A stretch of 64,000 bases of DNA from an uncultured Flavobacteriales bacterium (GTDB lineage Bacteria; Bacteroidota; Bacteroidia; Flavobacteriales_G; Salibacteraceae). The notes under the pieces were generated by a model. That model did not search any database. It was not told the DNA's origin and saw only the letters and a list, made by a program, of their open reading frames with translations. Below, in pieces: positions 39,255 to 43,609 of this stretch (positions are counted from its first letter, which is position 1; every line of letters begins with the position of its first letter). The DNA lies in the NCBI GenBank assembly GCA_943788725.1, contig CALSRJ010000004.1, positions 62,001 to 126,000 on the forward strand. Reading direction: 5' to 3'. Made by a program: the position numbers and the translations under genes.

Positions 39255-40286
39255 TTACCACTTCACAACTACCTTTCCGATGGAGCCCCGACTCTCCAAA
39301 CGCGCATGCGCTTGACCCAGCTCATTGGCGTTGAATACAGAATCCACCGTGGGTTTCAGGATGCCTTGTCGGTAGTGCGTGTACACTTCTTCGAGCGCTT
39401 CTTGCACATAGTTGGGTTTATTCTGTCCCAGCCTGAGCATGTTGACACCAATTACGCCTTTTGATTTCATAAGCAAGGCGATTGGGTGGAAGAACCCAAA
39501 TCCTAATCCGATCTTCAATTTATCTAGAAAATTGCCCTCAGTGGAACTCCAGTCGCTGGCTCCAAATGTGATAATACGCCCACCCGATCCTAGAAGTCCG
39601 AGGGTTCGTTTGAAGTTTTTGCCCCCAATTGGGTCAAAGGCCACGTCGATTCGATCCTCACCACACAGTCTCTCCACTTCCTTGACAAAATCTTTCTCCC
39701 TATAGTTGATAGGATGATCTACCCCTTGAGAGATGAGATAGTCCATCTTTTCAGGCCGACTTGCAGTGCCGAATACTTCGCAGCCTTTCCATTTTGCAAT
39801 CTGGACTAACGCAGTTCCCACTCCCCCTGCTGCAGCATGCACCAAGACCTTATCGCCTGGTTTCAAGTTGATCATATGACACGCTGCCATCCACGCAGTG
39901 CAATATTGAGTAGCCAGTGCCGTAGCTTCAGCAGGGTTTGTTCCAGCATCAAGGCGAATGGCTCCTGCTCCCTGTGTCTTGGCGTATTCTGCGTACCCAC
40001 CAAAAGGGGTAAGAGCCAAGACCAAATCACCCATTTGAACATGACTAACCTCGGACCCTACTTCCACGACCTCACCGACAACCTCATACCCAAGGACAAC
40101 AGGCAAGGCAGGTCGGTCTGCATACATTCCACGACGCGACATCACATCCGCATAGTTTAGTCCAAAATGGCTCACTTTGATTACTATTTCGTCGGGGTTG
40201 GCCTTAGGAATAGGTCTTTCTTCAAGTTCGAAAGCGTTTCCTGGGTCTCCCTTCCTTACATCTTTCGTCAGTACCAGTGCTTTCAT
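39255..40286 (-). CDS. Zinc-type alcohol dehydrogenase-like / quinone oxidoreductase
   Basis: 343 residues, MDR superfamily. Seen: N-terminal ERPIPKANPDEIVIKVSHFGLNYADVMSRRGMY (quinone oxidoreductase type, no catalytic zinc Cys), GYEVVGEVVEVG, and the NADPH-binding Rossmann motif VHAAAGGVGTALVQIAKWKGCEVFGTAS. It would reduce quinones or enals with NADPH in the cytosol. The start overlaps the rsmI stop by ATGA, and its stop lies next to the converging epimerase. Probably the last gene of the five-gene operon beginning at 43609. Confidence 0.88.
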   Translation of the reverse strand: MKALVLTKDVRKGDPGNAFELEERPIPKANPDEIVIKVSHFGLNYADVMSRRGMYADRPALPVVLGYEVVGEVVEVGSEVSHVQMGDLVLALTPFGGYAEYAKTQGAGAIRLDAGTNPAEATALATQYCTAWMAACHMINLKPGDKVLVHAAAGGVGTALVQIAKWKGCEVFGTASRPEKMDYLISQGVDHPINYREKDFVKEVERLCGEDRIDVAFDPIGGKNFKRTLGLLGSGGRIITFGASDWSSTEGNFLDKLKIGLGFGFFHPIALLMKSKGVIGVNMLRLGQNKPNYVQEALEEVYTHYRQGILKPTVDSVFNANELGQAHARLESRGSIGKVVVKW

Positions 40287-40981
40287 TCCTTTTTTCGTTT
40301 TTCTGCGTGATGCGTTCCTTCAATGACCAACACGATTTCCCCTTTATACGCATTGGTTTCGCCCAAAGCATGTAGCTCCTGGAGGGTGCCGCGGTGATAT
40401 GACTCGTAAACTTTGGTCAACTCCCGCGCAACACAAGCCCTTCGCTCACTTCCGAAAACTTCTACGGCTTCTTTAAGCGCTTTTTGTATCCGGTGGGGCG
40501 ACTCATACATCACCATAGTGTGTTGAATATCAGTTAGATCTCTCCAAAAGGTCTGCCTACCTTTCTTCTGGGGTGGGAAACCCAGGTAGAGATATTTCTC
40601 ACAAGGGAGTCCAGAGCCAACAATGGCGGGGATGATAGCGGTTGCACCAGGTAAAACTTCTACACGGATGTCTCGTTCAATGCAGGCCCTAACCAAGAGA
40701 TATCCAGGGTCACTTATGCCAGGTGTACCCGCATCTGTTACCAAAGCCATGTTGGTTCCGCCGATCAATTGATCTATTAAGCGTTCTGTGACTTTGTGCT
40801 CGTTGTGTTGGTGGAAGGGACTCAGCTTGTTTTCAACGCCTATATGCTGCAAGAGCTTGCCTGAGTGCCTAGTGTCTTCGCAGAGAATGAGGTCAACCGT
40901 TTTCAAGACCTTAACAGCCCGCATGGTGATGTCGTCTAGGTTGCCAATTGGCGTGGGGACCAGGGTGAGAATTCCGCTCAT
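40283..40981 (-). CDS. rsmI: 16S rRNA (cytidine-2'-O)-methyltransferase
   Basis: 232 residues from the ATG at 40981 (MSGILTLVPTPIGNLDDITMRA); upstream in-frame codons reach 41029 but overlap the phosphatase gene. It methylates C1402 of 16S rRNA. Seen: the N-terminal TPIGNLDDITMRAV, LCEDTRHSGKLL, LVTDAGTPGISDPGYLLVRACI and the FWRDL...YESPHRIQKAL region. Overlaps its neighbours on both sides by 4 bases. Confidence 0.95.
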   Translation of the reverse strand: MSGILTLVPTPIGNLDDITMRAVKVLKTVDLILCEDTRHSGKLLQHIGVENKLSPFHQHNEHKVTERLIDQLIGGTNMALVTDAGTPGISDPGYLLVRACIERDIRVEVLPGATAIIPAIVGSGLPCEKYLYLGFPPQKKGRQTFWRDLTDIQHTMVMYESPHRIQKALKEAVEVFGSERRACVARELTKVYESYHRGTLQELHALGETNAYKGEIVLVIEGTHHAEKRKKE

Positions 40982-41619
40982 AGCACGTCTTTCAATTGAG
41001 GAAAACAGCGCAAGTATTCTCGCACGCAACCATGGCCACCCTTCGAACGAAGTACGAAATGCGCGGCTTCTTTTATGGGTTGGGTAGCATCAGACGGACA
41101 GGCAGCAATGCGCGCTTTACCGAACATCTCAAGGTCGTTGATATCGTCCCCGATATACCCGACTTCATTCCATGACAGGCCCAATGTATCCAGCCATCCA
41201 GCAGCAACATTCAGTTTCGGATCTGTGCCGACATACACGTGCTCAATTCCGAACATCGCGGCTCTATGCTGAATGATGGATTGATTTACCCCGGAGGAGA
41301 TGATGCCAAAGGTGATGCCCTTTTTCATGGCGTGTTTGATGGCCATTCCATCCTTCGTATCAAAGCGCTTGAATTCATCACCGCTTTCGGTGTAGAACAT
41401 GCCTCCTTCTGTCAATACACCGTCCACATCCAAGAAGACAAAGCGAAGATCTTCCCAAGGAAGATTCGTGTATTGCATGTTCCATAGTAAAAGCACATCC
41501 AGGCCAATGCCGAGTCGTTCAGCTAGCGCTTCCAGCTCATAGAGGGTTGGGTTTTCGCTGAGCTCAAGCCCAGGGTCCAAGCTTTTCAAGTGGGCAATAT
41601 TCTCTTTAAGGTAGCTCAT
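40978..41619 (-). CDS. KdsC-like HAD phosphatase with N-terminal helical extension
   Basis: 213 residues; the HAD core of KdsC (3-deoxy-manno-octulosonate 8-phosphate phosphatase) is normally about 170-190. Core motifs: FVFLDVDGVLTEGG (nucleophile Asp), FDTKDGMAIKHAMKKG, IISSG and GYIGDDINDLEMF. The 50 or so residues before it contain NPTLYELEALAERLGIGLDVLL, which resembles the last helices of an XRE-type HTH or a helical oligomerisation tail. It hydrolyses a phosphosugar acid such as Kdo 8-phosphate (family knowledge). Overlaps the DAHP synthase gene by ATGA. Confidence 0.85.
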   Translation of the reverse strand: MSYLKENIAHLKSLDPGLELSENPTLYELEALAERLGIGLDVLLLWNMQYTNLPWEDLRFVFLDVDGVLTEGGMFYTESGDEFKRFDTKDGMAIKHAMKKGITFGIISSGVNQSIIQHRAAMFGIEHVYVGTDPKLNVAAGWLDTLGLSWNEVGYIGDDINDLEMFGKARIAACPSDATQPIKEAAHFVLRSKGGHGCVREYLRCFPQLKDVL

Positions 41620-42614
41620 ACAATGTTCCGCCCAACTGCTTGAGCCACTGGTTTGATGGCTTTGAGTAGATGGCGAAATTGGTCGTGGTAAAGTTGTTGC
41701 GCAGCGTCGCTTTTCGCTACCGAAGGGTCTGGGTGAACTTCAACGAGCAAACCGTCGATGCCCATAGCTACGCAAGCTTTGCTGAGGTCCTCAATACCGT
41801 ATCGGTATCCCAAGGCATGCGAAGGGTCTAAGATGATCGGAAGGTTGATGTGCTCTTTGAGCCATGCCACCCCGCAGAGGTCAAGTGTGAATCGCGTCTT
41901 TGTTTCGAATGTTCTGATCCCGCGTTCGCACAACATTACGTTGGAGTTCCCTCCGGAAAGCACGAATTCGGCGGCTTGCACGAATTCCTGCAGCGTAGTT
42001 CCAAATCCTCGTTTGATGAGAACGGCTTTGTCCGTTTTCGAGCATGCCTTAAGAATACCGTGATCATACATGCTCTTTGCGCCGATTTGAATTACATCAG
42101 CAAATTCGATGACGTCGTCCACATGGGTCGCATCCCGCACTTCGCTCACGATGACAAATCCATGTTCTTCGCGCATTTTGGCGAGCAACCGCAGACCTTC
42201 TCTACCAAGTCCTTGGAAGGAATAAGGAGATGTTCGGGGCTTGTAGCATCCCCCGCGCAGACCTTGGATGCCTAGTTCCTTCATCAGATCAGCGCTCTGT
42301 CTGATCTGCTCTTCAGATTCAACTGAACACGGCCCTGCAATGACCATCGTGTTGTTCGTATCACCACCAATGCTTTGTTGACCCAACTGAATGGTGCGCG
42401 TAGGAGCCGAATAGCTCCGACTCGCCAATTGGATGTCAGAATCCATCGCCCAATGTGCTTCAGCGTGGGGTTCGATTTCAGCGGGGACTTCCTTCAACTT
42501 TGAAGGGGTTACCAGCACAAAGCGTTGGCCATCGTAAAAAATGGCGGAGGTAGTCATCGCCGCAAAACGATGCGCCTCCTGTTCGGAGACATCCGGTCTC
42601 AAATGAATGATCAT
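41616..42614 (-). CDS. 3-deoxy-7-phosphoheptulonate (DAHP) synthase, type I-beta
   Basis: 332 residues. A short N-terminal ferredoxin-like domain (about 1-70; MIIHLRPDVSEQEAHRF) is the feedback-sensing module of I-beta enzymes (known family feature). The PEP/erythrose-4-phosphate barrel shows IAGPCSVESEEQI, GLRGGCYKPRTSPYSFQGLGREGL, ADVIQIGAKSMYDHGIL, VLIKRGFGTTLQEF and ILDPSHALGYRYG. KPRTSPY is the DAHP-synthase form, not the Kdo8P-synthase one. It condenses PEP with erythrose 4-phosphate, the first step to aromatic amino acids. It overlaps the RPE-CBS fusion upstream and the phosphatase downstream by 4 bases each. Confidence 0.93.
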   Translation of the reverse strand: MIIHLRPDVSEQEAHRFAAMTTSAIFYDGQRFVLVTPSKLKEVPAEIEPHAEAHWAMDSDIQLASRSYSAPTRTIQLGQQSIGGDTNNTMVIAGPCSVESEEQIRQSADLMKELGIQGLRGGCYKPRTSPYSFQGLGREGLRLLAKMREEHGFVIVSEVRDATHVDDVIEFADVIQIGAKSMYDHGILKACSKTDKAVLIKRGFGTTLQEFVQAAEFVLSGGNSNVMLCERGIRTFETKTRFTLDLCGVAWLKEHINLPIILDPSHALGYRYGIEDLSKACVAMGIDGLLVEVHPDPSVAKSDAAQQLYHDQFRHLLKAIKPVAQAVGRNIV

Positions 42615-43609
42615 AGTTCGCCTTTTACAAGGTTGAGGAAGGATACGACACCCTTCACTTTTTTGGTCTTATCAACTACAGGAAGGTAGTTGATGGGGAA
42701 TTGAAATTCTTTTAAATAGAGCAACATGGCACTCACGGTCATGTGGTCTTCTATCGCAATAGGTGCGCGATTGATCATGGCGTTTACGTCCATCTTTTCC
42801 GGGTGATCCACATTGCGGAGCACCTCTCTGCGCAGGTCCGCATTGCTCACGATTCCTTCGATCTGCTGTTCGGCATCTTCTAAAATAGTGAAGCCCAACT
42901 TGTGGTCTTCAATCGTTTGTAAGACTGTGCGCAAACTCCTATCGGCTGGTCCGACAATTGGCGTTTCCTCACGACTGCGCATGAAGTCGCCTACGGTGTA
43001 GTGACTCTCAATGTCGTGCAGTTTCAGGTTCAATAGGGCGGCGCCAATCGGCAAATTCTTGAACAGGTAGGAGCCAACCACGGAGGCGTGCACGCCCATG
43101 TTTCTGAGGATGAAACTCACCTCTGCGTTGACACCGCCATCCACGTGAATGCCCTTATCGGGGAATCGCCGTTTGAACCGCCGGATCTTTCGAAAATTTA
43201 TTTTGTCAAACCTGCCACCGCTCTCTCCTGGGATGGTCGCCATCATAAGAATGAAGTCGTAATGCGCGGGATCAAACTCGTCAATATCCGTGTCTGAAAT
43301 GATGCTTAACCCCATGCTCGCCGAGCAACCACCCTTGTACTTGTATCCATCCAAATCTTCATGCTGAAGCGTGACGAATTCAATCTGCAAGGCATTGATA
43401 CGCTCAAAGTACTGCTCTGGATTAGCGGTGATCAGATGAAGATCGATCGGAGTGTCGCTGTAGCGACGGATTTCTTCGATGTCATCAAAAACCTGGGGAT
43501 TGTCTCGGCAGTCGATGTGGAAATAGTCGATACCGTGCTGGTCAAGGTCTTTGATCAGCTGTTCAAGGGGGGTTTCCTTACTGGAATATACCGAAGCGGA
43601 GATCTTCAT
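42611..43609 (-). CDS. Ribulose-phosphate-3-epimerase-like barrel fused to a CBS-domain pair
   Basis: 332 residues. Residues 1-205 match the RPE barrel, with the metal-binding His and Asp of YFHIDCRDN, His of DLHLITANPEQYF, and Asp of IHVDGGVN; the MATIPGESGGRFDKINFRKIRRFK loop follows the RPE VNPGFGGQ pattern. In the first motif the usual HIDVMDG reads HIDCRDN, a change at the Met. Residues about 206-332 are two CBS domains (TVGDFMRSREETPIVGPADRSL; IEGIVSNADLRREVL; VNAMINRAPIAIEDHMTV; INYLPVVDKTKKVKGVVSFLNLV), in the KdsD (arabinose-5-phosphate isomerase) style with the SIS domain replaced. First gene of the operon. Confidence 0.88.
   Translation of the reverse strand: MKISASVYSSKETPLEQLIKDLDQHGIDYFHIDCRDNPQVFDDIEEIRRYSDTPIDLHLITANPEQYFERINALQIEFVTLQHEDLDGYKYKGGCSASMGLSIISDTDIDEFDPAHYDFILMMATIPGESGGRFDKINFRKIRRFKRRFPDKGIHVDGGVNAEVSFILRNMGVHASVVGSYLFKNLPIGAALLNLKLHDIESHYTVGDFMRSREETPIVGPADRSLRTVLQTIEDHKLGFTILEDAEQQIEGIVSNADLRREVLRNVDHPEKMDVNAMINRAPIAIEDHMTVSAMLLYLKEFQFPINYLPVVDKTKKVKGVVSFLNLVKGEL

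Follow-up and report, generated by a model that had tools for sequence, protein, structure and literature searches.

The question raised by the locus described here is what an RPE barrel joined to a CBS pair could be doing at the head of an operon with a DAHP-synthase-like gene and a KdsC-like gene, in a Flavobacteriales genome (99.07% complete, in 7 contigs) in which neither KdsA nor KdsD came over its cut-off in a profile search. These two enzymes belong to the pathway to KDO, a sugar acid by which lipopolysaccharide is anchored in the outer membrane. The making of KDO is strongly conserved among Gram-negative bacteria as part of their envelope biology, and it serves as a drug target.

In the window, that is, the whole stretch of 64,000 nucleotides that was analysed, the fusion gene (RPE-CBS; 42611-43609, minus strand) encodes a product of 332 aa, the proposed enzyme forming D-arabinose 5-phosphate (A5P). 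It is followed on the same strand by a DAHP-synthase-like (DAHPS-like) gene of type I-beta (41616-42614), whose product is the proposed KDO8P-synthase-like condensing enzyme, by a KdsC-like HAD phosphatase (40978-41619) with its HAD part from about residue 57, and by a gene with a TP_methylase domain in Pfam (40283-40981), which we take to be RsmI-like and which is probably just co-transcribed with the others. All three junctions are ATGA overlaps and the fusion is the first gene, so that the operon with a DAHP synthase and a KdsC-like phosphatase described in the first-pass annotation stands at every junction.

In Pfam, residues 2-183 of the fusion match Ribul_P_3_epim with 74 bits (cut-off 21.1), and a CBS pair covers about residues 206-329 (two stretches, 39.3 bits, cut-off 24), with no SIS match anywhere in the 332-aa ORF. 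The residues H31, D33, H58 and D157 of the metal-ligand motifs, which we take to be the RPE metal ligands, with the catalytic aspartates among them, are invariant across 17 aligned fusions; the 16 that come from elsewhere align to that of the window at 41-94% identity, and this architecture is therefore no chance event. The predicted model (mean pLDDT 82.9, pTM 0.59; pLDDT below 50 at 127-132, which is the PGxSGG loop, at 199-202 and at 328-332) matches the RPE structure 1h1y over residues 1-198 (Z 22.4, rmsd 2.8, 198 aligned), and over about residues 198-332 the CBS pairs of two putative A5P isomerases (3k2v and 4o9k, both with Z 16.2 and 127 residues aligned). The earlier description of an RPE barrel with its metal-ligand motifs, a CBS pair and no SIS domain thus finds agreement in the domain search, the alignment of 17 and the fold match.

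With canonical RPE the fusion shares the TIM-barrel fold and the metal-ligand motifs, but it differs in falling below the equivalog cut-off (69.1 bits on TIGR01163, cut-off 212.6), in a shortened loop, in changed pocket residues and in the added CBS pair. When aligned to the canonical Rpe that the same genome carries elsewhere (G000:C1:996527, 254.3 bits), all 17 fusion barrels lack six residues of the beta2-alpha2 loop, carry Q at the H position of H-x-E, R or N instead of M after HxD, and I instead of M after the second His, and they read PG[EQV]S[GR]G where the canonical enzyme has PGFGGQ. Judged from these residues, RPE-CBS is not a plain RPE: its catalytic motifs are retained and what surrounds them is altered. 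The first-pass annotation had named the joint absence of a canonical Rpe and of KdsD as something that would speak against a special role for the fusion; KdsD is indeed absent, whereas Rpe is present.

As regards the CBS pair, the closest solved CBS sequence is that of the A5P isomerase 4o9k (E 7.4e-9), a structure that presumably holds CMP-Kdo. Among the NCBIfam models that contain CBS, KpsF scores highest with 39.3 bits (cut-off 203.7) and KdsD follows with 35.7 (cut-off 505); both scores stay far below the cut-off, since the match is confined to the CBS part (residues 206-322 in the case of KpsF). A 511-aa ORF of the same genome, presumably IMP dehydrogenase, scores 52.9 bits on the KpsF model, above the fusion, and so the description of the pair as typical of KdsD, which is right in that its best matches are A5P isomerases, rests on best match and architecture. 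KdsD interconverts ribulose 5-phosphate and A5P and consists of one SIS and two CBS domains (PMC10448790). Like the KdsD/KpsF/GutQ isomerases, the fusion carries its CBS pair at the C-terminus, behind the catalytic domain, its proposed role would be the supply of A5P for KDO, and it occurs where KdsD is missing; unlike them, it has an RPE barrel where the SIS domain would be.

The collection scan, the genomes of the window's order and a phylum sample together gave 18 distinct carrier genomes, all of them Bacteroidota and at least 10 belonging to one genus; G190, G191, G193 and G194, with identical match coordinates, were counted once with G175, G172, G173 and G178, and the carriers reached through their loci (G192, G195-G200) were counted without completeness figures. 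The scan, which reaches close relatives only, contributed 11 matches, all in Bacteroidota (Flavobacteriales, Salibacteraceae, Bacteroidales, Cyclobacteriaceae, Chitinophaga, Flammeovirgaceae, Saprospiraceae and one "Bacteroidetes"). In the order, the fusion is present in 10 of 33 genomes, these being all 10 of the window's own genus and none of the 23 others, and in the phylum sample in 2 of 158 (G000, which is the genome of the window, and G041).

A DAHPS-like gene comes directly after the fusion in all 18 carriers, and a KdsC-like gene lies at most two genes further on in 15; of the remaining three loci, two break off where the contig ends, and L015 has no such gene close by. In L015, kdsB stands directly upstream of the fusion and overlaps its start by ATGA, an adjacency found in this one distant lineage only. 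The genes seen between the DAHPS-like and the KdsC-like genes are an AAA_14 ATPase (L006:11997-13187, minus strand), an ORF with no Pfam match (L128:7351-7932, minus strand) and a Peptidase_S51 gene (L011:2187-2891, plus strand).

A gap in the KDO pathway goes with this operon. The window's genome has WaaA, a separate KdsC, and a KdsB that matches solved KDO cytidylyltransferases; its only two DAHP_synth_1 genes are that of the operon and a DAHPS-chorismate mutase, which leaves no KdsA. Across the 18 carriers, KdsB and the KdsC family were found in 18, WaaA in 16 (missing in G177 and G041), KdsA over cut-off in one (G171) and KdsD over cut-off in none. Of the 158 genomes of the phylum sample, 115 have both WaaA and KdsA and 40 have neither; one (G153) has KdsA alone, and two, namely the window's genome and G066, have WaaA alone. 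The KdsA count of 116 is made up of 114 over cut-off, G128 just below it and G052 split in two frames. Fisher tests, which ignore kinship and on neither of which we lean, gave p 1.3e-5 for the order (9 of the 10 carriers and 2 of the 23 non-carriers are without KdsA) and p 1.1e-10 for a comparison of seven selected carrier lineages with 116 WaaA genomes that lack the fusion, the latter leaving out G041, which has no WaaA match. Poor assembly was considered as a cause of the gap and rejected, since the window's genome is nearly complete and the pattern recurs in other lineages; hidden copies were likewise rejected on the counts of KdsA and KdsD just given. Three genomes deserve separate mention. 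G171 has the fusion together with KdsA and a transaldolase-CBS gene (see below). G041 (L122, L136), listed as 100% complete, has the RPE-CBS operon and KdsB and no WaaA match at E 0.001; it is possible that it has another KDO transferase, or another use for the sugar. G066 has WaaA, and neither KdsA over cut-off nor the fusion was detected in it, which may be due to a further replacement or to an assembly gap.

The explanation that we favour, with a probability of roughly 0.55, is that the three genes together take the place of the KdsD-KdsA(-KdsC) segment of the KDO pathway, as a non-orthologous replacement. The domains, the operon, the pattern of genes present and absent, their co-occurrence and the substitutions specific to the group are observed; substrate, product and regulation we infer. 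RPE removes, and then returns, a proton at the carbon adjoining the carbonyl, and A5P is the C2 epimer of ribose 5-phosphate, so that the two-aspartate, metal-assisted chemistry of RPE, shifted by one carbon towards the carbonyl end, could give A5P, with a change of pocket being needed. The fusion would thus make A5P most simply by C2 epimerisation of ribose 5-phosphate, or alternatively by isomerising ribulose 5-phosphate; that the RPE barrel supplies A5P or a close analogue is our best reading of it. The DAHPS-like enzyme would condense A5P with PEP, the KdsC-like phosphatase would take off the phosphate, and ordinary KdsB and WaaA would then use the product. The CBS pair would regulate the first step, possibly sensing CMP-KDO, for its best matches are the CBS pairs of A5P isomerases and the KDO end product is consequently at least as likely a ligand as adenine nucleotides. 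The first-pass annotation had suggested that a 2-keto-3-deoxy sugar acid might be made here by a variant route, and this is supported by the missing KdsA and KdsD, the retained KdsB and WaaA, and the kdsB overlap in one lineage. In the open-access literature, no description was found of an RPE-CBS fusion or of KDO synthesis that does without KdsD and KdsA.

The condensing enzyme speaks in two ways. By its scores it belongs to type I-beta DAHP synthase (TIGR01361, PRK08673), passing TIGR01361 with 312.9 bits (cut-off 267.75), and it fails the KdsA model TIGR01362 (127.2 bits, cut-off 314); the motif KPRTSPY is present in all 18 operon enzymes, and the KANRS of KdsA is absent. With the KDO8P synthase KdsA, itself rare in the carriers, it would have in common the superfamily and the proposed reaction. 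On the other hand, 11 near-fixed positions set the 18 operon enzymes apart from 19 control Bacteroidota DAHPSs, hand-picked from profile matches, among them R180K, Q183Y/F and N184D (K180, Y/F183 and D184 in 18/18, against R, Q and N in 19/19). The operon group accordingly reads G[AS]K[SA]M[YF]D for the GARN[MST]QN of type I-beta, a stretch aligned with IPAFLCRQT of KdsA, where the residue in the 183 column presumably touches the phosphate of A5P. Two others of the 11, F242 and A304, also occur in the DAHPS chains compared, 1zco second among them, that we take to be archaeal, which however keep GARN.QN. A further difference from type I-beta enzymes is that the carriers are without KdsD and, except G171, without KdsA. 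In the DAHPS tree the 18 operon enzymes group together (85/86 alone, 97/90 with a very long chorismate-mutase row, which stands beside the operon group and is of unsure placement), and a branch sets them apart in 100% of the 200 bootstrap trees. We found no paper in the open-access literature on the specificity of DAHPS versus KDO8P synthase.

The phosphatase of the window passes the family model TIGR01670 (123.8 bits, cut-off 106.95) and lies below both equivalog cut-offs: its best model is KDN-9-phosphatase (135.1 bits, cut-off 180), and on the KdsC equivalog NF007019 it scores 114 bits (cut-off 208), where the separate KdsC of the same genome (at C2:42019) likewise stays below with 134.4. 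Two other operon phosphatases were scanned, one being closest to the KDN model and one to the KdsC family. The operon copy is the sole KdsC-family match in G196 and G198, and in G200 the sole match lies outside the operon. These mixed matches and the variable location of KdsC mean that the phosphatase does not settle the product. The window copy has an N-terminal extension of about 55 aa that by eye resembles part of an XRE-type helix-turn-helix; the copies in L011, L013 and L014 have 158-165 aa.

On sequence grounds, what may be said against the replacement of the KdsD-KdsA steps is that the DAHPS keeps KPRTSPY and passes the DAHPS cut-offs, and that the phosphatase is nearest to the KDN model; against it also stand the exceptions G041, G066, G171 and G177, the second KdsC of the window's genome, the KdsC outside the operon in G200, the sharing of F242 and A304 with archaeal DAHPSs, the restriction of the kdsB adjacency to a single lineage, and the weight of one genus among the carriers. 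Alternatively, the operon might make an analogue of KDO along the same three steps, with KdsB and WaaA accepting the analogue: the fusion would act on a different aldose phosphate, such as E4P, which a change at C2 would turn into threose 4-phosphate, and the DAHPS would condense the product. KPRTSPY, a four-carbon-sugar motif, has persisted in 18/18 operon enzymes although the neighbouring loop has changed, the nearest model of the phosphatase is one for a nonulosonate (KDN-9-P) phosphatase, the phosphate in RPE lies two carbons away from the reacting carbon, a distance that fits E4P, and the evidence of the pathway gap is equal for both. Against an analogue stands KdsB, which has no column fixed differently between carriers (17 of the 18, G192 being out) and genomes with an SIS-type gene (5 of 6), a result that, given the small SIS group, speaks weakly for KDO. 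We hold the analogue to be unlikely, if credible. Its fullest form, in which threose 4-phosphate from E4P is taken by the DAHPS to a C7 3-deoxy-lyxo-heptulosonate phosphate, and KdsB and WaaA place the C7 homologue at the position of KDO, so that lipid A would be built without KDO, seems to us distinctly improbable.

Two further explanations keep the operon closer to known functions. If the fusion were an ordinary ligand-regulated RPE, and the DAHPS-like enzyme made DAHP for aromatics or a secondary product while other genes filled the KDO gap, the intact RPE motifs and fold, the DAHPS family scores and KPRTSPY would all be expected; but a canonical Rpe and a DAHPS-chorismate mutase are already in the window's genome, the equivalog cut-off is widely missed, the loop is lost and the pocket changed, and there would be no explanation for the overlap with kdsB in L015 or for the missing KdsA and KdsD, which makes this quite unlikely. 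For the same reason, namely the separate DAHPS-chorismate mutase, a control point for aromatic synthesis, the other possibility raised in the first-pass annotation, is not supported, as far as the window's genome, the one checked, is concerned. The fusion might instead be mainly a regulator of its DAHPS-like partner, with the CBS pair binding an end product and the barrel catalysing little, as its strict pairing with the DAHPS-like gene and the likeness of its CBS pair to those of A5P isomerases would allow. This we regard as very improbable, for the metal-ligand motif residues are invariant in 17 sequences, which is unexpected in a dead barrel, and no KdsD over cut-off remains to supply A5P.

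The replacement of the KdsD-KdsA steps, if true, would account for a gap in the annotation of several Bacteroidota lineages and would mean a new enzyme activity, drawn from an RPE barrel and a DAHPS, in a pathway whose KdsA is found with WaaA in 115 of the 158 genomes sampled, with one of the two lacking in 3; such an operon, which appears to stand in for the missing KDO enzymes, points to a second way of building KDO.

A parallel is found in the sister genera. Divergent KdsA loci of the same order are adjoined in 16 of 16 cases (blastp) by a protein related to a transaldolase/fructose-6-phosphate-aldolase barrel with a CBS pair (L037:402-1418, minus strand; L040:2289-3296, plus strand; and 14 more KdsA_b loci in L036-L051), the transaldolase and CBS domains being confirmed by Pfam in two of them; the CBS part of one scores 79.7 bits on the KpsF model, and kdsB lies within the same short locus in 8 of the 16. 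The transaldolase-CBS genomes have no KdsD over cut-off. The 33 genomes of the order divide into 6 with a KdsD-type SIS gene and KdsA (including G162, a partial match under cut-off), 15 with transaldolase-CBS and without RPE-CBS, 10 with RPE-CBS (including G171, which has both fusions) and 2 with none. The transaldolase-CBS is a candidate A5P-forming aldolase; the fructose-6-phosphate aldolase FsaA has served in E. coli as an aldolase that yields A5P from glycolaldehyde and glyceraldehyde 3-phosphate (PMC9947464). The CBS pair is therefore found on three catalytic domains (SIS, aldolase and RPE), adjoining or replacing KDO genes, and if the proposed roles are true, the first step towards KDO would have been rebuilt on three unrelated catalytic domains joined to a like CBS pair. 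In the KdsB of 5 of the 7 transaldolase-CBS genomes compared, LEQN is found instead of LEQL, so that this branch may make a modified sugar.
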